A DNA stretch of 64,000 bases from Lepraria neglecta (lineage: Eukaryota; Ascomycota; Lecanoromycetes; Lecanorales; Stereocaulaceae), in contig CM065648.1 in the NCBI GenBank assembly GCA_033220425.1, forward strand, positions 248,001 to 312,000, written 5' to 3'. Both the position numbers and the translations under genes were made by a program. Under the pieces are notes generated by a model. The model did no database searches, was not told where the DNA came from, and saw nothing but the letters and a program-made list of their open reading frames with translations. Below are positions 19,270 through 56,700 of the stretch, one piece after another. Each line of letters begins with the position of its first letter. The stretch's first letter is position 1.

Positions 19270-19400
19270 TGTGCGGATGGTGTGCAAGCTCAGACGAGGG
19301 TTGAGGCGAGATAAAACAGAGATCAGTGAACGGAAGCTCTGAGGCAATTGGACCTCATTGGCCGTAGTGGTGGAGCATGGAAGGATTGCTGAGGAGGCTA

Positions 19401-19707
19401 GAAGGGTTCACCCCTCAACCGGCAGAACCCCCAAACTGGCAGGCCTTGTAAGGCTGTCACCCGGAACTCTCGAATTTCCTACCCCGGGCACAGCTCTAGG
19501 GGCGTCTTAGGGCCCGAACAGCGAAAATTTACAGTACTCTATAGCTCGCCAATCAGACAAGTTCCGATAAAAGTTTTAGTACAAAAGTTATAGAGATATG
19601 TAAGACCTATAATGATATATGCGAAAAAAAATTCTCAAACGCTATATCTGTAGAGTTAGAGAGGGGCTGCTGGTTGGGGGTTCTGCCGGTTGAGGGGTGA
19701 ACCCTTC
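19401..19707. mobile_element. MITE, 307 bp, TA target duplication
   Basis: Perfect 34-bp terminal inverted repeats begin gaagggttcacccctcaa and run on with ccggcagaaccccc. Both ends are flanked by TA (19399-19400 and 19708-19709), the target duplication of Tc1/mariner-type elements. The interior is AT-rich and non-coding. It is a non-autonomous element that shares its outer 18 bp with the element at 25968-26182. A Tc1-type transposase remnant lies 2 kb away, but a link to it is not shown. Confidence 0.92.
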
Positions 19708-20039
19708 TACTTGGCGGGGTCGTTTAATCACCTTCAACCGTATAGAATCAGCCTCGCTGCCTGCGATTAGGCAATTCGTTATAGCTCGCCAGCCTCCTGC
19801 TTTCTTTTCTCCTCTATATACTTTGAACATTCGTCATGATTTGCGCGAGACTGTGCCGTAAGTATATTGAATAAGGATGCGGAGACTATTCAGTCTGACT
19901 AGGAGGAGTACTACTACTACTAGAGAGGCTACTAGCACTAAGACGTGAAAACTACCGCTACTGTAAGTACACTTAATCTGCTTAAGTTCATATCTGATAG
20001 AGAGAACGCTTAGGCATCTCCATCTAATCAGCATGTCGC

Positions 20040-25780: not shown

Positions 25781-25967
25781 TGGCTTGATCTGCCAAGCCT
25801 GGTTTCCTAAACTCAACAATTTGACAGCAAAGGTCTTTTCGTGTCGCACCACCTTGAAGCAGTTCGCCGTGACTGCAAGCTTCATGCAAGCCGAGCAGGT
25901 TCCTTTACCTGCCGAAGCTGTCCCTGGTATTATCAGAGACGAGACAAAATGTCTGCGCTGTCACTTA

Positions 25968-26182
25968 GAAGGGTTCACCCCTCAAGTACGCAAACCCCCC
26001 AAGTGCGCACGGCCCTAACGAGCGCCTTGGAGCTGGCCGTTTAGGCAACGTGGAAATGCCCCGGAACTTGACGGCCTCGCAGCTTTAGGGGCCAGTTCAT
26101 TGCGCCTAAATAACCTACTCTAGGGCGCTCGTTAGGGCCGTGCGCACTTGGGGGGTTTGCGTACTTGAGGGGTGAACCCTTC
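25968..26182. mobile_element. MITE, 215 bp, TA target duplication
   Basis: Perfect 59-bp terminal inverted repeats start with gaagggttcacccctcaa and continue with gtacgcaaacccccc. TA flanks both sides (25966-25967 and 26183-26184). The two arms make up more than half the element and could form a long hairpin. The outer 18 bp are identical to those of the element at 19401-19707, while the rest differs. Confidence 0.93.
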
Positions 26183-27363
26183 TAGGCTTGGAGGAGGCTC
26201 CTGAAATGCCTCCCAGGACTCCTTCAGCCTGTGCTCCAATTTTCTTCATCGAACGTGCTCCAAACTCTCGCAACGGTGCGAAATGCCAGCTTTCACCCTC
26301 CACAATCCATTCTTCGGTCTACGGCTTGGGCCAGCGATACAGCCAGGTCGTCTTATTCGCCGCCTCGGACCTCGTCCGCGCAGCAGCTCAGTTCGAACAG
26401 ATGATTCCTTTTTAGAGCATGCTAGAGCACCTTTTCGCTCGACTACGTCGCTCCGAAGCCTCCTGCCTTTGCCTTCCTTTGCCGGCCACAGCTTCACCAC
26501 TGCTCAGCTGATCTGCGATACTGGTTGAGAATCCAGCTTGTGGCGAGGACCCTACGGCGAAGTGACTATCAAAATGATTATCTCTCTTCACGATCACTGG
26601 GGCTTTCCACTTGTCTGCCTGGCCGTGTCGACAAGGATCGTACCTTAGCCGTGATCGGATGGAATTAAAGGAGCCTTGGCTTCGACACGATCGACATTGC
26701 TCCTTTGCGTGTCTGCCTGGCTGCGCCGACAAGGATGCCGCAATTGCGTTGTTCTAGTGACGTGGCCTCGAGACGCCGATCTCGTGTTTGGGCAGGCGTG
26801 GTGGACGGCGCGGAACAGCCGATGCGTCATAGAGTCTCAGCTCGAAGATCCAGCCCGCTGCAGCTGATGTGGCTCGACCGGATATGGATGTCTCCGAGGG
26901 GCGCAGGGAAAAAAGTTGCATAGGATGCCGATACGCAGGGAACGCTCAGCTCGTATGATGCGTGGATCGAATACGAAGGTGCAATGGCCGGGAGCTGTGC
27001 CTGAGCGTGCAACTTGGTGTGAGGCGAATGACTGGAGATAGGCGATTAATGGTGTTAAGAGGAAGAGAAGGCGAAGGACGGGGTATATAAGCCGGGAAGA
27101 TCCCAGTGCGTGGTCTGGTAACCTTGGGTATATATAATCTACCGCTCGCCATCTCTCTTCACCTGGAATTTACCCTCTAGACTACTAAGTCAAAAATAGT
27201 CAGACTATTTCTATCCTCTGGTTCCCTTTGCGCTTGTACAATGGCCTTTGTTGGGATAGGTTCTTTCCATCACTTTTAACCCCTAAAGGCAGGCCTACAT
27301 CGCGATAGGCGGGAGTTTCTATACCTCAGGCGGTCTAAAAAAATTACATAGCTAGTTCAATAA

Positions 27364-28090: not shown

Positions 28091-30340
28091 TCTGCGAATC
28101 ACTGCCTCTACAACTAGGAGTCTCCGACGTAGAAGCTTCAGCTTAGTGTGACGTTTGACCTCGACTTGTTGGGCAGCAGTGAGTCGCCTCGACCGCCTCC
28201 ATCATCCACCGTCCCTTTCTAGCTCGATCCTGACTACGTATAGCGAGATGTTTACGATGAGCTCTGGCGACGGAGCTGCGAACCGGCGTCACGCGTGGCG
28301 CTCGTGGGACTTGGTGGCGTAGGGTGAGCCCGACCCATCTTGTTGATCCTGTAGGACCACAAGCTGATTGAAGAGCAAGCAAATCACAGCTGGTGATCAC
28401 GTACTCGTACCAAGTGCTGAAGGGGCGACCTGATAGCTGGGTGTTCTGGGTGTACGCAAGCAACGCGATTCGAAGAAGGATAACCTATGTCCAAGCGTGA
28501 TGGAAAACCCAGCGTAAAGTCTTGGCACTGCGTTCTCACGCCAGATACCCTCAATTTGGTCTAAATTGGGCTAATGACCCATATGAACAGATCCTAAGAC
28601 CACCATTCCTGCTGTCTCTGCGGTTGTTGTTCAAAATTACCACAGCGTTGATCATTGTGACGCCTATGACTGGTTACAGCATGTAAAAGCCGCATTCTTG
28701 ATCCGTGGCGGTACAATCAACGACGGCATCGGTGACAGTAAATTTAATGTTAGATAGAATTAATCATGTTATTTTCGATCTCTACAGAGGTCCAGAGTAA
28801 TCCATAGATATTGAAAGCGAGATTTTCGACCTTCATGCACCTAATTGAGATTCGTCGACGATCTTAAGGAAGGCGACGGAAGGAGCCGAATACGAAGCCG
28901 CAGAAATCTTGACTGCAGTCATTTGAACTGGCATGAGCAGCCGGTACGGCCCGATTTCGGAGCGTCCCTTAGCCACCAGTTCTGCAACAGACCCGCGCGC
29001 TTGGTATTGCTATTCACAATGCTGTTCGTGTCATGAATGCTCTCTCCATTCCTTCTCCGAGCGCTGAGTCTTATATGATCATTGAGCCAGATCTCTAACT
29101 GGTATAAGTGGATAGCCAAGCCAGCCTCCCCTGCCTCAGGTGCGACATGAGGATCGAGAAAGTTCTTCGGGTTGCGGGAGCGATGAGAGTACCTGAGAGT
29201 GGAGCTATAGACTTGGAAGTGCCCGTTGTGCTCTTGGATTTGAGAGCAGGGCACCCTGAATTCACAGGTATTCGCGAAGGATCGATGTAAACCTTTGACA
29301 TGTAGTCTAGGGGTTTTTGGTGTTAGGCATTTGTGTACGGACGCTCAGCGCTAACTTACGAGTTATTAACAAGAACTATCCTTCAAAGCTTTCCACCCGC
29401 TTCGATCATAAATCCAGCTGGCTGCTTCATCTTGACTAGATTGGGTCGATGATAGCTAGCTTGGCACGACATGGAAACCACATCTCGATGTCTTCGACAA
29501 GTGTGTCTAGTTACTGGATGGATGACGTACTGCCAGCTTTCTTTTTCGCTTTTGCTCGAGTTGAGTGGACTAAGCAAAACTATGTTCCTGCCTCATGTCT
29601 GCAATTTGATTCAGGACAGTAACCCTTCTGCCGTCCTTAGACCTGTCAGAGCTATTTTAAAATTCAAACCCCTGTTTATCGCTAAAATGCCCATTCAGGA
29701 ATCTGTTCATAAACTTCAGCCCAAAGCCAGCGATTGTACTTTCCTTGACTCCGCAAATCGAGTGAAATTAAGGCAAGTGCTCTGCGAATCGCGAAAGCAT
29801 GATCGGTACCAAGAGCATGAGATTGAAGAGACGATCGGACCAGTGCATTTCGAGTTGTAGTTCTGAGAACAGAACATTCTTCTTAATCGACTAAGTCACA
29901 TGGTAGTTTTCCTGTTAAAGAAGATTCTGGAGGGGACCTTGGTGAGTGAGCCAACCTGGTACGCCTGCAACGTAAGTCTTTTGCAAGTTTTCTTGTACGT
30001 CTTGCCACGTATCTACTCATCATTCTTACGAAGCTTGGCAACGGAAGTTTCGCGCAGATTTGAGGCCTATTCTTAGCAGCTAGGCAGCTTTCACATGTAA
30101 AACACTCGAGACGAACCAACTTTTCTCGGATACATGCCAATGAATGGACTGGGTCCTAGAGAGCTGAATCAAGCATTCGCCAAATTATTTTTCTCCTTCC
30201 CCATTGCTCTGACCATTTTGACGGACGCTTTCCACACAAACCAACTATCTACATATTCGAACCAGCCAACTCGAATATTCTGAACGGACTCTTCCCTCAC
30301 CGATCATCCATCTATACAAACACACCAACTGGAGAACAAA

Positions 30341-47078: not shown

Positions 47079-49701
47079 GCAGACCCATTATCTATCGTTG
47101 CTAGCATCATCTCTGTCATTGTGGCCGTTGAAGGTTTGAGAAAGACCTTAGAGCAGATCAAAAATCTCTCAAATGCTCCTGATGAGGTCTTTGCCCTGAT
47201 TAACGAGGTATCGGACTTCGACATCGTATCGAAACATATCGAGGAGCTTGTCACAGATGATGATGAAGCCATGGCGGCTCATAGGTATCTGGAACACATG
47301 CAGAGATTGATAGAAAAGCACAAGACCAGCTCCTTCAGCTCGAGCATCTCATTCGTGGGCAGCTTTTGAAGCCCAAAGGCCCAAAAGGCAACCTCGCTGT
47401 ATCTCGCATTCAATGGACGATGACCAAGAAAAGGATCAACAATCTGCGGATGGACCTCCGAAACATTAGGCTCAACATTGTCGGCCAACTCGCTTCTACA
47501 AGCTGGTGCGTTGTCATGCACAGAACCCCATGCCCCCTTACTAAAACATCTTAGCGCACAGCAATCGCGAGTGCAACTTGGTGTCGACAAGATCTTGATG
47601 ATTGTCGGCAAGATACAAAAAGAGCAGACTTGGCTTCGGAGCCAGGCCGGGCACCTATCGGGGCAGCTACTACGTGATCACGAGCAACCCCAATCCCACG
47701 AGTGACAACTTCCTGACAGCTCCATGCGCCTCCTAACCAACTCTGAGAATGCTCACAACGGAGTGGATGGTTTGCTTGGATCCAAGTATCAAGCTAGCGA
47801 GCAACAAGACCAATTGGATGACAGTGACAGGAGTACACGCCTTGTGCTTAAGGTCAAAGCCTACATCCGAAAACGTGCGCGGCTCTTTTGTGACTCCCGG
47901 TGCAACTGCGCCTGTCACCCGTGACGCCAATACAGGTCATCTACCTCTCTTGACAAATCGCTGGGAACTTCTTCATTGGCTACACTGGGCTCCGCACAAG
48001 GCCTTCAATCAAGTGTATGAGCACCTTCTGCAACCGGAATCCATCCTTTGGAGCTCGTGTCGAATACGTCTTTCCGCACTGGTTTCTCTCCAATACCTTG
48101 GCAATACTCACCATCTCAATCACCAATCAACCAGCTTTATGTCTAAGTATCACCAGATTTCAAGGAGATGCTGATGTTTTCCGCCATATCAAGACGAATG
48201 ATCTCAAAGGTCTGCAGCTACTATACAGTACCGGCTTGGAGTCTCCAAGGGACGTTTGCAGTCATGGCCGGACTGCTCTTCTGGTAAGATTTGTCTCAAT
48301 TGCTTGGCAATTCCCCACTTATCATCATCGTTTTAGTGCAAGTCTATACAGTGCACGCACAATGTCATTGAGATCAGCATCCTACATCGTGCGTTAGTCG
48401 AGAGCGTTATCTCGCTTCATGATCATACTGCCAGCTTATTAACTCGTGTCGGGTTATAGTATGCTGTGCAGGAATGGAACCTCAAGATTACCCGCTTCCT
48501 CCTTGATGCTGACGCTGTAAGTATCTTAAGACCCTTGGCGACCTATAGGTTCTAACTTCCTTGCTAGGACCCATACATCCAGCATAATTACTAAAGATAG
48601 GTAGTTGTGTATCGGGCATCAAATCTCGGTTGACAGTTTTCTTACAGCAGCGCATATGAAGCCAGCTGGGATATTACATTCGCTGGGTCAGAGGATCAGG
48701 CAATATTGGAATCATTTCAAACGCTGTTCCCTTGCGATGATTGCATCGAGGACTTTGAGCTCTCATGGATTCATAGAATTGTTCTAGGTATTTTGAGTCG
48801 TGGCCTAGCAGAGGAACTGCATGTTTCCACCCGGGCTGAAGTCAACGTTCCTGACACAAGGGGAAGGAATGCTCTTTCTGGGTCTGCGCTGAGGGGAGAC
48901 CACCAGGCCGTCAGCCTACTCCTGGAAGCAGGGGCTGATAAAAATACGTCTGAAATTGACGGAAACACACCACTGCTCTTTTCTACGGAAAGGGGCGCAA
49001 ACTCATGCATGAAACTGCCGCTGAAAGCTGGTGCAAACGCAACACACCGGAGCCACAAAGGGCGAGACGCATTGTTCAAGGCTCTAGAGAACCACGATAA
49101 TCCCCATTGCACAAAGCCTCTTCTTGCGGCTGGCATCAGTGTCGATATTCGAGACTCGCACGGAGCTTCGCCTTTGAGCTGGGCTGCGCTTAGGAACCAC
49201 GTCAGGTCAATACCAGTTCTACTTGATTGTAGAGCCGATATCAATCTGGCCAATCAAGAGGGGGATACTCTACTGATGGAATCGCTCTTCTTCAACAGCG
49301 ATGATGCACTGAAATTGCTACTCGAGGCTGGAGCCGACTACACAAAAGAAGTCAGCTATGGAGACCCAATCTTACACGACGTGGCCATCTATGATAATCT
49401 CAGAACCATCGAGCGGCCAAGCTCCCAGGTATCGATATCAATGCTACCAACAAGAAGGGCAAAACAGCACTTCAATTGGTGCAGCAGCGGGAAGAGAAGC
49501 CAGACGGATTCGTGAAAGCATTTCAGATCATGTTGGAGGTTCGAAGGCGACCCCGGAAATGGTGCAGTCGACAATGAAATATCAGCGGCGCAGCAAGACC
49601 AGTCAGACACTTGCGAGGACTTTGTTCACGCCTTAGAAGAGCAACCGCCATATGTGTTTCAAGGCGGCACACCGCTATTTCCTTGCTTGAGCCTGGAATG
49701 A
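47079..49701 (+). pseudogene. ankyrin-repeat STAND-associated protein, multiply frameshifted
   Basis: ATG 47079 opens MADPLSIVASIISVIVAVEG, the helical N-terminal domain common in fungal STAND/ankyrin proteins. The family text then changes frame after EKHKTS (about 47325) to LLQLEHLIRGQLLKPKG. An intron with GT-AG ends follows. Another break near 47930-47970 (TGA after CNCACHP, then a one-base loss) leads to FFIGYTGLRTRPSIK and VEYVFPHWFLSNTLAILT. At least five ankyrin repeats run from 48820 to 49400 (for example GDHQAVSLLLEAGADKNTSE). A further frameshift near 49425 precedes LPGIDINATNKKGKTALQLV, and one more near 49540 precedes an acidic C-terminus ending at 49701. No nucleotide-binding domain is present between head and repeats. 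Confidence 0.8.
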
Positions 49702-50642
49702 CTGCTTCCCGAGTCTACACCAAAGCTAAAGCTGCTATGTAGATATCAAGCATGCACTATGTACATTTTCCAGTGCTAAATATTGTTGACAGTGGAGAGG
49801 AGTAAAGAGGCTGAGTTCCCTCGAGCCCAAGCCCAATCATGTTACCCCTATATCACGCCGCTACCTCTGACCGCCATTCCGATCACACACATGTCATAAG
49901 ACGAGGATGGTATCAGAAAGGGGCACACCGAGTAATTCATTTCATTCTCTAATCCATGATCCCAGTCACCCACCCCAGCATCTCACGCCGCCTGACAACC
50001 CTCTATTACAGTGCGAAGCTCACTAGTAACACCGAAATACACCGAGCACTGCCCTCCGCCGCATTTCTACTCTCAGTAGGACAAGCAACAAATCGGACCA
50101 TTCCGCTTTCCACTCCACCTTTCATCTCCGCTTTTTCGCTCAGGCCATTCTTCTACCAAAGCGGTTTTCTGTCGCTGGAGGATCATGTTTAACATTCATT
50201 CTGGCTAACATCCATTGTGCTTATGGAATAAGGCGGCGTTCATATCTAAGCGAGGTATTAGTTAAGCGGGATGTATATACCTTATGTAGGCTGCGCCTGA
50301 TATGAAATGCTTGTGTTTATAGTGGCAGGCTGTATGCAGCAATTTATGTTCCTGTCCCGTGGACATAAAGTAGCAAACATGGTCCGCCTCAGCCACGCAT
50401 CACGGTGGGCCAGCGATCTTCCCACCACCGCGCAATCTTTTCTGGGCTTCATGCATACCGGCTACCGTGCAATCGAGTCCGACGCGCAAACAGATAGTGC
50501 ATTTCATTTGCTTCCCAGAGTTCGACTGCTAGAGCATATAGTACAGCGCCGTCACAGGGAGGAGGAGGGACTTGTTCAATACATATTTACATTGTCCACA
50601 TCTAATCATTCTATAGACAAACATAGTAATGTCCCTCCATGT
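49702..50642. other. intergenic, no recognised feature
   Basis: About 940 bp between the ankyrin pseudogene and the left inverted-repeat arm. Open frames at 49956-50192 and 50307-50675 have no recognisable domain. Confidence 0.45.
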
Positions 50643-51130
50643 ATGGCGGAAAACCCACCGTGCCGGAAAATATGACGGATACTTTAACTTCAGGCGAATA
50701 TAACTCTGCGCACACGTCGGACTCTACTAAGTTCAGGTATATATCGTGTACTGTGGCTCTTTTGAAATATCGATTACCTTTCTGACCCATAAATTACATT
50801 CGTATCATCGCTTTCTCGCCTAATTCGCTCAGGGCCGTCTTTTATGACGAACCAATTTCCATTTACTGTAGCACCACCATGACGTTTTTTTTTAATTATC
50901 GTATACATAATAGGGATCTAATCCGAGCCTTTAACCCTTGTTATAATGATAGAAAGTTATCATCAGTTTTGTGCCTGCTGTCGCGCGCAAATTCATACAA
51001 GGTCGCCACCTTGGTCGGTACCTCCGATCAGAGTAATTGCTGATCCAGGCTAGTGCAAAACGACCTTGTATAGCCTTCGCAATAATTACCGTGTATCTTA
51101 CTTGTCTCGTCAGTAAGCCAAGTATATAGC
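50643..51130. repeat. left arm of a long diverged inverted repeat
   Basis: Matches the minus strand of 55510-55987 over most of its length. Outer end: gcggaaaacccaccgtgccg here, gcggaaagcccaccgtaccg there. Then ggaaaatatga in both, and actctgcg(c/t)a(c/t)acgtcgg in both. An inner segment at 50982-51060 (gcgcgcaaattcata, then gtcgccacctt and gtcggtacctcc) matches gcgcgcaaattcata, gttgccaccct and gtcggtacttcc on the other side. Overall identity is roughly 70-80% by eye. It lies directly upstream of the CHAT-NB-ARC-TPR gene. Confidence 0.85.
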
Positions 51131-51436
51131 TATCAGGCCTGATGACTTAAAGTGTGGCTCACTTTCTGGAAACATCTATTAATAGTTATGTGCTAAGTCT
51201 ATTTTGGGCGAGCAGGCGTGCCCCGCTCTTAGCGTCGCCAGCCGTCTTGTCGTGCCTACAACAATCGTGCAGGGGTAACTAGGATCTCAGGTCAGGCCAA
51301 TACCTGCCTTCCGTATTCAAATAAATGTTCATCAATGTTTAAAGTGACGGAGGTTGCAGCAGTCGTCTCATAACAACATACAACGACAGCTTGTGAAGTA
51401 ATACTTACCTGAACCTTCTCAGCCATACAAGATTAT

Positions 51437-54400
51437 ATGCCACGATGGCCACTAAAGGTCCTTATCCTTTCATCAGATCCTCGCAATACAGATCGGTTAC
51501 GTCTGGCGCAAGAGCATCGAGACTTACAGGTCGCAATCCGCGGAACACGCTCTGCCTCGTCGCTGGCTGTCCTCAATGAACCTTCCTGCCGATATTCTGA
51601 TATTACAGCAGCATTGGATCGCTTCGATCCACATATACTACACTTTAGTAGACACGGTAGAGAGGATGTATTATATTTTGAAGATGTTCAAGGGACCGCC
51701 AAAGCTGTCAAAAAGCAAGCGCTAGCAAGAGTGCTAAGCCATCAGAAAGAGCTGCAAATCGTTATACTCAATGCTTGTTTCTCGTTGGATCAAGGGCAGG
51801 CTTTTACGGATGCAGTTAGTCTGGCAATAGTATCAGAGGGAAGCATACTGGACCACGATACGATCGACTTCTCCCGAGAATTCTATACAGCGCTTAGGTA
51901 TGGACAGAGAAGTTATATCGAAGCTTTTGAGCGAGCAAAGTCCGCTCTTGAAATAACAGGTATAATAAAGGTGCATCTTTTGCAACGTGAAACGCCTGGT
52001 ATACAAGATGTCCCAGCATATTCATTCTTTGCACCAGGTGCTCGACAAGGTATAGATACGGAGGAGTTGCTTCAGACTCTACCGAAAAGCAGAGTAGTTG
52101 GGACTCCACATACGGTCGATGTTATACCAGACATAGGTAAGTGCTCTTAAGCAGAATGAAGCCTTTGGGAGAGAAGGAACACAGTTCCATTATAAGTCAA
52201 GCACGGGTTATAGAAAGCTGTCCACGTACGAGATCACTGAGTAAGCGCTGACCCAACATCTTCCAGAAGGCGATAGTTTCCACGTGCAGTTCCAGCTTAC
52301 GGGTCTGCCAGTTACCGGCTACTTCGTCGATCGCGACCCCGAAATGGAAGCGATAGAGCGGCATCTACTCCCGACAAAGACACAGGCTGGACGGAAGATG
52401 CACATCCTCCATGGCCTGGGCGGGATCGGAAAGACGCAGCTAGCGATCGCACACGCTCGAAAGCATCAGAACATATATAGTGCGATAGTATGGGTGAACG
52501 GCAACAGTAGAGATACGGTGCTGCAGAGTCTGGCGCGATTTGCTCAGCATTTGGGCATAAGCGATGCTGTAAATCCACCGAGCAGCACGGCTCAACAAGC
52601 TCCAGACATGGAGGCAGAGGCGCACGCCGTTCTGAGATGGCTGGGCCAAGAACGGAATCGTCGTTAGCTGATGATCTTCGACAATGTCGATCAAGACGTC
52701 CGATTCAGCGAGGAAGATACTCAGGCCTTTAGGGTCACATCATTCCTGCCACCAGCTGATCATGGCTCCGTGCTAATAACGACCCGTCTTCCTTCCCTAC
52801 GGGAGATGGGCCAGTCGACGGAAGTTGGAATTCTCACGCTGGATCAGGCACAAGAGCTCCTCAGCTATCGCTCGGGTCTATATCCATCAAGTTATGGTAG
52901 AATAAGCGTCCCATCAGAATCCGGAAATACAAGCCTGATAACATATTTTACAGACATGGCGAAGCTCATTCAGCGACTCGGCTACCTCCCTCTCGCTCTA
53001 GTTCAAGCAGGTACCTATATACACAAAACCAAGACGGGGTGCTCAAAGTACTTGGACCTGTATGAGGCTTCGTGGACCCAGCTCGCGGCCGAGACGCCTC
53101 AGCTACGGGACTATGAGAATGGGAGCATTCAGACGACGTGGATGATCTCCTATGAGCATGTGCGACAGGGCAACCGGACGGCGGGAAAGTTGCTGCAGCT
53201 GTGGGGGTACCTGGATCATCAAGATGTCTGGTATGAGCTCTTCCTTCGCGGACGCGATGGCTGCCAAGAAGAGTTGCAGGAGCTGGCAGGCAGCGAGATT
53301 ATCTTCAAGAGGGTGATGGAGAGCTTATTAGCCTACTCGCTGATCGAATCGCCCCAAGACAAGGAAAGCTATTCAATCCATCCGGTTCTGCATGACTGGT
53401 GCACTGAGACAATCAGTCATGGCCAATGTGACTTAATACTGGCCGCGGTGAGGATTGTAGGCACCGCGGCGCCGGGTCATTCAGTAGCCGAGTACTGGCT
53501 TTTGCAGCAACGACTGCTCCCCCATGCTGACCGATGTGTACGACAAATAGATGATCTAGAAGCGCTCCACCAACTTGAATCAGTCGAGGCTAGCAACGCA
53601 CTCCATGGTGTGGGTTTTCTCTTCGCCGATCAAGGCATGCACGCGAAGGCGGAGAAGATATATCGGCGGGCGCTGGATGGATACGAGAAAGCATGGGGCC
53701 CTGATCACACCTCCACCCTCGACACCGTCAACAACTTGGGCGCCCTTTATGCTGATCAAGGCAAGCTGGTAGAAGCAGAAGAGATGTATAGGCGGGCGCT
53801 AGCTGGAAAGGAGAAAGCATGGGGCCTGGATCATATATCCACCCTCTCCACCGTCAACAACTTGGGCGCCCTTTATGCTGATCAAGGCAAGCTGGTGGAA
53901 GCAGAAGAGATGTATAGGCGGGCGCTGGCTGGAAAGGAGAAAGCATGGGGCCTGGATCATATATCCACCCTCTCCACCGTCAACAACTTGGGCACCCTTT
54001 ATGCTGATCAAGGCAAGCTGGTGGAAGTAGAAGAGATGTATGGGCGGGCGCTGGCTGGATACGAGAAAGCATGGGGCCTGGATCATACATCCACCCTCTC
54101 CACCGTCAACAACTTGGGCAACCTTTATGCTGATCAAGGCAAGCTGGTAGAAGCAGAAGAGATGTATAGGCGGGCGCTAGCTGGAAAGGAGAAAGCATGG
54201 GGCCTGGATCATACATCCACCCTCGACACCGTCAACAACTTGGGCACCCTTTATGCTGATCAAGGCAAGCTGGTGGAAGCAGAAGAGATGCATAGGCGGG
54301 CGCTGGCTGGATACGAGAAAGCATGGGGCCTGGATCATACATCCACCCTCGACACCGTTAACAACTTGGGCAACCTTTATGCTGATCAAGGCAAGCTGGT

Positions 54401-55208
54401 AGAAGCAGAAGAGATGTATAGGCGGGCGCTAGCTGGAAAGGAGAAAGCATGGGGCCTGGATCATACATCCACCCTCTCCACCGTCAACAACTTGGGCACC
54501 CTTTATGCTGATCAAGGCAAGCTGGTGGAAGCAGAAGAGATGTATAGGCGGGCGCTGGCTGGAAAGGAGAAAGCATGGGGCCTGGATCATAGATCCACCC
54601 TCGACACCGTCAACAACTTGGGCGCCCTTTATGCTGATCAAGGCAAGCTGGTGGAAGCAGAAGAGATGTATAGGCGGGCGCTGGCTAGAAAGGAGAAAGC
54701 ATGGGGCCTGGATCATATATCCACCCTCGACACCGTCAACAACTTGGGCTCCCTTTATGCTGATCAAGGCAAGCTGGTAGAAGCAGAAGAGATGTATAGG
54801 CGGGCGCTAGCTGGAAAGGAGAAAGCATGGGGCCTGGATCATATATTCACCCTCTCCACCGTCAACAGCTTGGGCACCCTTTATGCTGATCAAGGCAAGC
54901 TGGTGGAAGCAGAAGAGATGTATAGGCGGGCGCTGGCTGGAAAGGAGAAAGCATGGGGCCCGGATCATCCCTCCACACTCCGTGCTATCAACAACTTACG
55001 CTTGCTTAATACTGGTCGAGGTGGGTAGATGAAAGTGAGAGAGATACATTCGCAGGCGCTCGATAGAAGTGATAGGGCACACGACACTAACCAGCATCTA
55101 CAAGCACCACCATCAATAGGGAAAGCCATCTTAAACAAACTCAAAGCTGGCATGCGGAGGCAGAACAAGGCTTTGCAGGACGGTAAACAGATCTCAGAAA
55201 TTATATAA
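51437..55208 (+). pseudogene. CHAT protease-like / NB-ARC / TPR receptor (NLR) gene with in-frame TAG
   Basis: Exon 1 (51437-52136) and exon 2 (from 52267; 130-bp GT-AG intron) form one frame. Residues 1-200 are a CHAT caspase-like domain: KVLILSSDPRNTDRLRLAQE, HILHFSRHG with catalytic-type His73, and IVILNACFS with Cys114. The bacterial-type core SREFYTALRYGQRSYIEAFE follows. An NB-ARC domain has P-loop GLGGIGKT (283-290), MIFDNVDQ (kinase 2), TTRLPS and the GLPL-like GYLPLALVQAG. From residue 686 there are eleven 42-residue TPR units. A TAG at 52665-52667 (codon 367) stands where relatives have Trp just before kinase 2. A second TAG (55026-55028) may be the true stop, though the frame continues to 55208. 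Apart from this it looks intact. CHAT-NLRs are proposed cell-death proteases; no gasdermin gene was found nearby. Confidence 0.85.
53622..55007 (+). repeat. tandem array of eleven 126-bp TPR-coding units
   Basis: Eleven consecutive 126-bp units each encode 42 residues of the form YADQGKLVEAEEMYRRALA plus (G/R)(K/Y)EKAWGLDH(T/I/R)STL(S/D)T and VNNLG(A/T/N/S)L. The nine central units are nearly identical in DNA; the first and last are diverged. Differences cluster at four or five codon positions. Homogenised repeats with hypervariable positions are the hallmark of fungal NLR sensor domains under concerted evolution and selection. Confidence 0.95.
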
Positions 55209-55509
55209 TCCTAGGTATGATAAATACATTACGTATGCATTACGTGAAACAGCTTTGACTCTTAATTGTCACGAGCAGTCACTATATCCCATTTTCGAGC
55301 TACTCAAAGATCCATCTGGTGCACGCCCCCTTTGGTGTACGCCATTGTCCGTGGTGAATACGACCATGTTATGGTATGCACCTTTCTAAATGTATCTTAG
55401 CTCGCCGGGGAGCTGTTGGCGGTTCCAACAGCTGACTGCTCGGAGTTGGATCATTATATTCTGAGGGTCCGCACAGCCATAGGCCTAACAGCCACAGGCC
55501 AAATAGCCA
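55209..55509. other. spacer between receptor gene and right inverted arm
   Basis: About 300 bp after the receptor gene. A repeated word (agccacaggcc / gccataggccta) is visible near 55480-55505. Weak similarity to the inverted left arm may extend into this part. Confidence 0.4.
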
Positions 55510-55987
55510 CAATAGCTTACCGGATGACATAATTAAATTACATTGTAATAATTATATGAGCCGTGCGGGGTTATTTTGCACCAGCCGGAGTTGGTAATTA
55601 CTTTCAGCGGAAGTACCGACTAGGGTGGCAACCTTTTATGAATTTGCGCGCTACAGCATATATAAAGCTTGATGGTAACTTCTTAGCATCATAGTAAGAT
55701 TCCGGGGCTCAGATAAGACCGTTGATGAGTGTTATAGAGTGGTAAGAGCTTTACAATAGTGCTATAGGGAAGGGATAATATAACGCTATAAAAGGAGGCT
55801 TTCTGCAAATCAGGCGCGAGGGCGACTATACAAACGTAATTTATAGGTAAGAGGAGTCTCGAATACTTACAATTAGCCACAGCACACGACTTCCACACAA
55901 TTATAGTAAATCCCGACGTATACGCAGAGTCATAGTCGCTTGAAGTTGGAGTACCCCTCATATTTTCCGGTACGGTGGGCTTTCCGC
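55510..55987. repeat. right arm of the long diverged inverted repeat
   Basis: Minus-strand copy of 50643-51130 (see there for matching blocks). Read inward it opens a 90-codon frame (55961-55689, minus) starting with ATG 26 bp from the outer end. The left arm has an ATG at the same distance. The region between the two outer ends is 5.35 kb. Confidence 0.85.
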
Positions 55988-56700
55988 GACCCAGGGATGG
56001 ACATTAATACAAGGCTTGCGCCATCGAGACTCCATAGATCCCACCTCGTAACATGACACAAATACACTGCGGCCGAGGATCTGCAACCCATGACACGTTG
56101 TTTCCCCATTCCTTTACAATCCTACTCTTCCCGCTCCGCGCTTCCTTCACCCCATACTTGCGCCCCTCGCACAGCCGCCATGTCCAATCCTTCCATCTTC
56201 TATTCTCGGCTTGGGGGCCTTAGGCAGGAGCGAGTGTCTTAGCAAAGGTCTGCGTAGAGTTGGGCTTGGGCTGTATCATTGTTGTCGTGCGCGTTCAAGG
56301 CTAATGTGGCCGTTGGACAACAGCGCCTTTCGCTTCGTGCGAGAACGTTGGGGCGCTATGCGAGTGTTAGAGGTGGTTGCTTATCAAGCCGTTTGCCAGA
56401 CCGAGCCCTGCAACAGCGGGTTGGTGTTCCAATCATAGCCTTATGATGTCCGTTGTCGCATTCGAAAGACGGTGGCTTCGTGGAAGACTATCGACGCCGA
56501 GATGGGTTTCATTCAGCAGAACCATGAGTGTCGATAGAATCCCTGCGAATCGATAGAGGTCCCAGGAGGAAGGCTAACTGCCAAAGTGGCTAATCAAAGC
56601 AATTGCTTTTGCAGAACGTTGTGATCCTTATGCTCGTAATGATTGCTCTGTAGTAAGAAACTCGTGAGGAGGTCGTGAGGCTATTGTCGTCATTCTGTTT
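55988..56700. other. intergenic, no recognised feature
   Basis: About 710 bp outside the right arm, up to the 3' end of the disordered-protein gene. One open frame (56211-56438) has no domain. Confidence 0.4.

Follow-up and report, generated by a model that had tools for sequence, protein, structure and literature searches.

The 64,000-nt stretch of Lepraria neglecta DNA analysed here, referred to as the window (contig CM065648.1 of assembly GCA_033220425.1, positions 248,001 to 312,000), contains a gene for a NOD-like receptor (NLR) that lies between two long inverted arms, which raises the question of how the receptor and the arms came to be together. An initial annotation of the locus proposed that the receptor had been moved, or kept mobile or invertible, as an inverted-repeat cassette, or alternatively that it sits between two inverted copies of an old element. 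The evidence from the window and from a search of the genome (42.0 Mb, 11 contigs) argues strongly, with a probability of about 0.92, that positions 50627-56006 belong to a pogo-like (Tc1/mariner-type) family of DNA transposons with NLR genes as cargo, of which they represent a non-autonomous copy.

The window element (C3w) measures 5.4 kb, is bounded by TA dinucleotides and encloses a single plus-strand gene with a CHAT domain, an NB-ARC domain and a TPR array. Gapped blastn of 50500-51400 against 55200-56100 (minus strand) aligned the arms at 70% identity (306/439, 5 gaps, E 6e-49; three further matches of 9-14 nt are noise), confirming that the gene lies between inverted arms, and a freer local alignment scored 365 versus at most 38 in 30 shuffles. 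The annotated arm length of ~0.48 kb and inner identity of 70-80% were about right, although the ~90% given for the tips was slightly high: the best block near the tip (75 nt from 50646) is 85% identical and another of 51 nt further inward 88%, and a repeat search returned two ungapped blocks of 71% and 77%. The left TA target site, read from the sequence and having no strand, occupies 50627-50628; the left terminal tip, of the A type described below, spans 50629-50671 (+) and the left arm, an A-type end homologous to the ends of other elements, 50624-51060 (+). On the other side, the right arm, also an A-type end, extends over 55437-56006 (-), its 570 nt being 84% identical to C6:3386816-3387384 and 80% to C2:1703050-1703592, and the right tip (55962-56004, -) is followed by the right TA at 56005-56006 (no strand), assigned from the sequence and the family pattern. 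Both tips fit the tip pattern, the left one with 2 mismatches, and were matched by the nhmmer tip model at E 9.3e-14 (left) and 9.6e-15 (right), both being among the 12 tips from which that model was built. No structured RNA or tRNA was found in the window, and as regards a coding exon common to the arms, the open reading frames (ORFs) within them are short.

Searches of the genome with the two arms gave 5 and 9 matches, the arms themselves counted. When nine fetched stretches were compared all against all, together with the window, the 126-nt TPR array recurred at four of the arm-matching places (L019, L020, L023, and L024), with the tip pointing away from the gene. The outermost ~45 nt are conserved between ends, and 14 of the 15 tips in the tip alignment are preceded by TA, the remaining one reading TG. 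Run over 18 stretches, the tip model returned 16 matches (E up to 0.0011) and supplied inverted partners for seven elements; further tips were recovered with IUPAC patterns, for which a reversed control pattern had zero matches. The total amounts to 31 tips, forming 14 inverted pairs that span 2.8-9.3 kb each and together cover 79.4 kb, or 0.19% of the genome, plus three tips for which no partner was found (C2:4147187, C1:3384520, and C9:40554). As to whether the arms are a solo repeat with random neighbours, 7 of the 14 tip pairs enclose NLR sequence. Three of the tip-bounded elements (C1b, C1c, and C1) form a local cluster within 60 kb, at C1:3456702-3516231.

Nine elements were read (C3w, C6a, C2a, C4, C5, C2b, C1, C6b, and C7), and the other five (C5b, C3b, C1b, C1c, and C6c) are known mainly from search matches and end pieces of 101-381 nt. 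The receptors are of the CHAT-NB-ARC-TPR, nucleotide-binding (NB)-TPR and NACHT-WD40 types. In addition to the CHAT-NB-ARC-TPR gene of the window, NB-TPR receptors occur in C6a (C6:3382867-3387385) and C2a (C2:1703049-1708443). Four of the seven NLR elements hold in addition a HeLo-like (PF17111) effector gene: C4 with an NB-TPR receptor and a transposase, C5 with a NACHT-WD40 receptor (NACHT by Pfam, WD40 by eye), C2b with an NB-ARC-TPR receptor and a transposase remnant, and C5b with an open PF17111 match beside a decayed NLR match interrupted by 11 stops. A protein-kinase fragment is present in C1, transposase remnants together with a squalene-synthase-like ORF (C6:3650405-3651529, SQS_PSY E 4e-42) in C6b, a glutathione S-transferase (GST)-like gene with a transposase ORF missing its N-terminal part in C7 (C7:2150195-2153869), and a transposase in C3b. 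Searches for transposase, NLR and PF17111 gave no internal match in C1b, C1c or C6c; C1c is about half covered (L049), and three ORFs within it were without a match in Pfam up to an E of 1. One ORF inside C1c, of 90 amino acids and without Pfam match (L049:405-674, +), ends in GNKYGGKDF, which we take, from inspection by eye, to resemble the C-terminal end of effectors associated with fungal NLRs.

In C4, effector, NLR and transposase lie within one terminal-inverted-repeat (TIR) unit. The C-terminus of its effector, VTFGPQNSGFQAGNINGGVN, matches a stretch that precedes the P-loop of the NLR, ISFGEANSGFQAGIIHGSVN, and this common motif, found in one of three frames, scored 69 versus at most 46 in 200 shuffles. 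With its exon structure predicted, the pair would conform to the arrangement described for amyloid signalling, in which the effector bears a motif at its C-terminus that recurs at the extreme N-terminus of the NLR beside it (PMC5485727). The C4 pair resembles the nwd2/het-S, sigma, and HRAM pairs described there in that effector and NLR are neighbours with a common short motif, but differs from them in being located in a TIR transposon with a transposase. A common effector-NLR motif was not found in C2b (40 versus a null maximum of 45) nor in C5 (at most 37 versus a null maximum of 49-53).

A broader proposal is that this small pogo-type family serves as a permanent carrier of whole cell-death modules, with receptor, PF17111 effector and transposase combined in one TIR unit. 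The cargo would be retained because it helps the host, as immunity, or the element itself, as a device for addiction or nonself recognition, and fungal NLR repertoires would therefore be built in part by cut-and-paste transposition. We advance this as a tentative idea, to which we give somewhat less than an even chance. A competing reading, which we consider rather doubtful but still a serious contender, holds that the NLR cargo is incidental, the transposon taking any neighbouring gene and NLRs being over-represented through their abundance or through the starting point of the searches. The kinase fragment, the squalene-synthase-like gene and the GST-like gene speak for this reading, as does the choice of an NLR element as the starting point of the first searches. 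On the other hand, half of the pairs contain NLR sequence within so small a fraction of the genome, effector and NLR genes occur together in four elements, and 4 of the 49 PF17111 matches in the genome fall inside elements versus 0.09 expected; the PF17111 and NLR excesses are overstated because part of the set was reached from an NLR element. The fairest single test is C5b (C5:282168-288918), a new pair found by a pattern derived from three tips, none of them known to lie on an NLR element, and yet NLR and effector matches are present inside it.

The family is associated with one clade of transposase. The C4 transposase combines HTH_Tnp_Tc5 (PF03221, E 3e-6) and DDE_1 (PF03184, E 2e-13 and 3e-14) in two overlapping ORFs, that is, with one frameshift. 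No additional TIR was seen around it; for this reason the transposase appears to be the element's own, and the idea of a nested transposon was rejected. A degenerate DDE_1 stretch at C4:265608-266120 stops ~15 nt short of the left tip of C4, an element that therefore seems to adjoin another transposon. A single clade of this pogo-type (HTH_Tnp_Tc5 plus DDE_1) transposase is represented inside 5 of the 14 tip pairs, namely C4, C2b, C6b, C7, and C3b. The first C4 transposase ORF has 126 matches, of which 12 reach 50% identity; a tip is located no more than 10 kb away from 9 of these 12 (7 of 10 loci) but from none of the 114 below that identity. Two loci have two pieces each, so that the matches are not all independent; these counts did not change when the tips found later were added. 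Two transposase pieces, at C2:4134.5k and C2:4139.3k, lie 8-13 kb from the unpaired tip C2:4147187. Presumably, a transposase made elsewhere in the genome would bind the tips of an element such as that of the window, cut the unit out and paste it at a TA.

Evidence of movement comes from the comparison of C6a with C2a in reversed orientation, which are 94.5% (488 nt), 94.2% (3085 nt) and 93.7% (922 nt) identical in successive stretches that run to the TA at both ends. They are located on different contigs and their flanks are unrelated over the 80 nt shown on each side, with no flank match over the 17-18 kb compared (E limit 1e-10); therefore, the whole unit has moved, the NLR included. The main NLR frames of C6a and C2a are open (893 and 1040 amino acids), the P-loop being in a separate upstream frame, and their first 380 codons differ by 17 synonymous and 29 nonsynonymous changes, a ratio of nonsynonymous to synonymous rates (dN/dS) of ~0.52 that rests on a small sample; some constraint on this receptor is likely judging from the codon comparison. 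In addition, C1b (C1:3456.7-3462.5k) and C5b (C5:282.2-288.9k) sit in paralogous DNA. When the flanking pieces were compared (C5:281850-282230, C5:288850-289200, C1:3456400-3456765, and C1:3462420-3462750), the left flank of C5b was continuous across the insertion point of C1b, with one TA in place of the two that border C1b, and the right flank of C1b was continuous across the C5b site, again with a single TA and small differences beyond it. The single TA of the empty sites versus the two of the filled ones indicates that TA was duplicated on insertion in two members, one of them with NLR and effector matches. C1b and C5b are thus different elements whose insertion points in this duplicated DNA are separated by ~25 nt, and this spacing may reflect a preferred target; the copy on C5 contains a tandem duplication as well.

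It could be argued that the segments between tips arose as segmental duplications of NLR loci, generated by recombination between dispersed repeats in the absence of transposition, since the arms are dispersed repeats and NLR families duplicate readily. This we consider very unlikely: the homology of C6a and C2a stops at TA on both sides with unrelated flanks, and the counterparts of C1b and C5b have one TA instead of two, which largely refutes the idea for those elements, and moreover the transposase clade tracks the tips.

Beyond the tip, most ends belong to two types, A and B, as judged from end-versus-end alignment scores (null maximum 36). In elements with two A ends (C3w, C4, and C5) the arms match over a long distance, with 315/396 identical for C4 and 317/425 for C5. 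One A-like and one B-type end are present in each of C6a, C2a, C1, and C6b, whose two ends have little in common outside the tip, and the right end of C2b does not agree well with either type. The two ends of C6a, C1, C2b, and C6b align over only 27-50 nt, and those of C2a over 27 nt. We infer that the long arms of the window represent two ends of the same type, as in C4 and C5, and not an inversion device. This distribution also bears on the alternative raised in the initial annotation, in which a short, old and unrelated element, similar to a miniature inverted-repeat transposable element, would by chance flank a resident NLR with two copies in inverted orientation. It is in keeping with that alternative that the window arms are just 70% alike, each scoring higher with an end elsewhere, and that the element has no transposase match. 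We nonetheless judge it highly improbable, because outward-facing paired tips surround different NLR genes, enclosing NLR sequence at seven sites; furthermore, the C6a/C2a unit moved with the gene inside, and most ends are of A or B type paired as A/A or A/B, as expected for the termini of whole elements. Finally, that the arms serve to invert the receptor as an orientation switch is extremely unlikely, for while long inverted repeats can in general recombine, arms that are 70% identical and have mismatches scattered along them are poor substrates for it, and several other elements have short matching ends. The suggestion that the receptor was moved as an inverted-repeat cassette has accordingly gained support, as the same tips bound other NLRs and C6a and C2a are ~94% identical from TA to TA, in contrast to its supposed invertibility, for which this single genome offered none, the elements having the appearance of transposons with TA target sites.

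A number of observations weigh against the reading of the window element as a copy of an NLR-carrying transposon family. Half of the pairs (7 of 14) have no NLR seen in them (those with the kinase fragment, the squalene-synthase-like gene and the GST-like gene, three unread and the half-read C1c), two of the seven NLRs are damaged (by one TAG in the window and by the 11 stops in C5b), and the start of the first arm and tip searches at an NLR element biases the NLR share upward. Some boundaries are less certain than others: the position of the right end of C7 was deduced from its similarity to the left end (83% inverted match over 134 nt), and that of C2b is a weak match (E 0.001). With respect to the transposase, three loci of the clade have no tip within 10 kb (C1:3547315, C1:5354442, and C7:197591), an NB-ARC match lying ~2 kb from the second and an NLR match ~11 kb from the third, with no tip found at either; the transposase beside C6c is ~1.3 kb outside the tip pair. 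As for the window element itself, none of the 102 DDE_1 matches falls within C3:298625-304008, for which reason it is called non-autonomous, and no second copy or empty site of it was found in this genome. It has TA at both ends, but TA at the edge of an element is weak evidence for any single copy, and its right arm is closer to the ends of other elements (84%) than to its own left arm (70%), scoring 504 with the C6a/C2a ends versus 267.

Because of this closer relation of its right arm to the C6a/C2a ends, the window element is either old or of mixed descent, put together from ends of different origin. The arm mismatches comprise 98 transitions versus 58 transversions, and the TpA/ApT ratio of the arms (1.02 and 1.15 versus 0.75 for the window) is somewhat raised, in a mild skew resembling that of repeat-induced point mutation (RIP). 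On these figures RIP may have contributed to the divergence of the arms, but it does not fully explain why they are just 70% identical and was rejected as the sole cause. Altogether, the sequence features suggest that C3w is probably an old, non-autonomous and partly decayed copy.

The receptor gene of the window joins effector, nucleotide-binding and repeat domains through a predicted intron. The CHAT ORF (51437-52150) matches PF12770 with E 2e-5 and 24.7 bits versus a cut-off of 24, and exon 1, encoding this caspase-like protease effector domain, would extend over 51437-52136 (+), its end being placed at a GT site. A likely intron of 130 nt (GTAAGT...CAG; 52137-52266, +) is proposed from the GT/AG borders and the continuity of the frame across it. 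The nucleotide-binding region is assigned to 52267-53498 (+), of which 52341-52889 (C3:300341-300889) is an NB-ARC match over the cut-off and the rest is putative; an AAA_16 match in this region (E 2.7e-5) is below its own cut-off. It is followed by the TPR array at 53499-55058 (+), made of 126-nt units in 11 registers (TPR_10 E 2.8e-103, 10 stretches), the ORF ending at 55028. An in-frame TAG at 52665-52667, inside the NB-ARC match, means that the reading frame is not intact, and owing to it the window copy is probably defective. As judged from what is known of the family, in a functional receptor of this kind the TPR array would sense a ligand, the NB domain would then oligomerise and the CHAT protease would be activated, leading to regulated cell death. 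The sole other DNA match of the CHAT-NB part is C2:5748577-5749171 (68%; 67% over 1.55 kb in the all-against-all comparison), a locus at which the tip model search found no tip and which is a possible resident source of the window cargo.

Fot1-type elements are known as small transposons with a transposase as their sole gene, unlike the NLR-carrying elements described here, which measure 4.5-9.3 kb and have receptor genes and arms of up to ~0.5 kb. The present family is nevertheless similar to Pogo/Fot1-like (Tc1/mariner) elements in its TA target, its TIRs and its HTH_Tnp_Tc5 plus DDE_1 transposase; the TA target and the fungal Fot1 are recorded for pogo-type elements in PMC7325037. NLRs are already known as cargo of the giant Starships, and other genes as cargo of fungal DNA transposons. 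Starships are likewise fungal transposons with NLR cargo (PMC12506042, PMC9594970, PMC12134995, PMC9815663, the last citing Gluck-Thaler 2022), but they are very large and have a tyrosine-recombinase captain with DUF3435 (PMC12506042), whereas the elements reported here are small (2.8-9.3 kb), with inverted tips and a DDE transposase. ToxhAT, a 14-kb fungal DNA transposon that moves the accessory gene ToxA (PMC12506042), differs in being of the hAT class, by its name, and in carrying an effector gene, being neither pogo-type nor a carrier of an NLR. The fungal DNA transposons encoding TET/JBP have also captured a gene, although they belong to hAT, EnSpm, Harbinger, Zisupton and other groups and hold one enzyme gene and no receptor-effector pairs (PMC12730594). 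No report of small pogo-type elements with NLR cargo was found in the open-access PubMed Central literature, in which bioRxiv and the majority of subscription papers are absent.

The NLR repertoire differs greatly from one fungal genome to another, and Starships are the known carriers. A small DDE transposon with NLRs, in four elements together with an effector, would offer receptors a simple route to multiply and relocate within a genome, and perhaps between genomes. An NLR inside such an element must escape the repeat defences of the genome; otherwise it will decay, which seems to have happened to the window copy and to C5b.

Other features of the window include an ankyrin-repeat ORF upstream of the element (48634-49512; Ank_2 E 1.4e-25 for 49009-49512), a fold-back repeat at 25966-26184, whose 219 nt match their own reverse complement at 79%, and a perfect 36-nt inverted repeat at 19399-19434 and 19674-19709. 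Positions 28146-28476 contain a short match to an NLR NB domain (C3:276378-276476, 55% over 33 amino acids, E 5e-4) and are probably a relic of another NLR.

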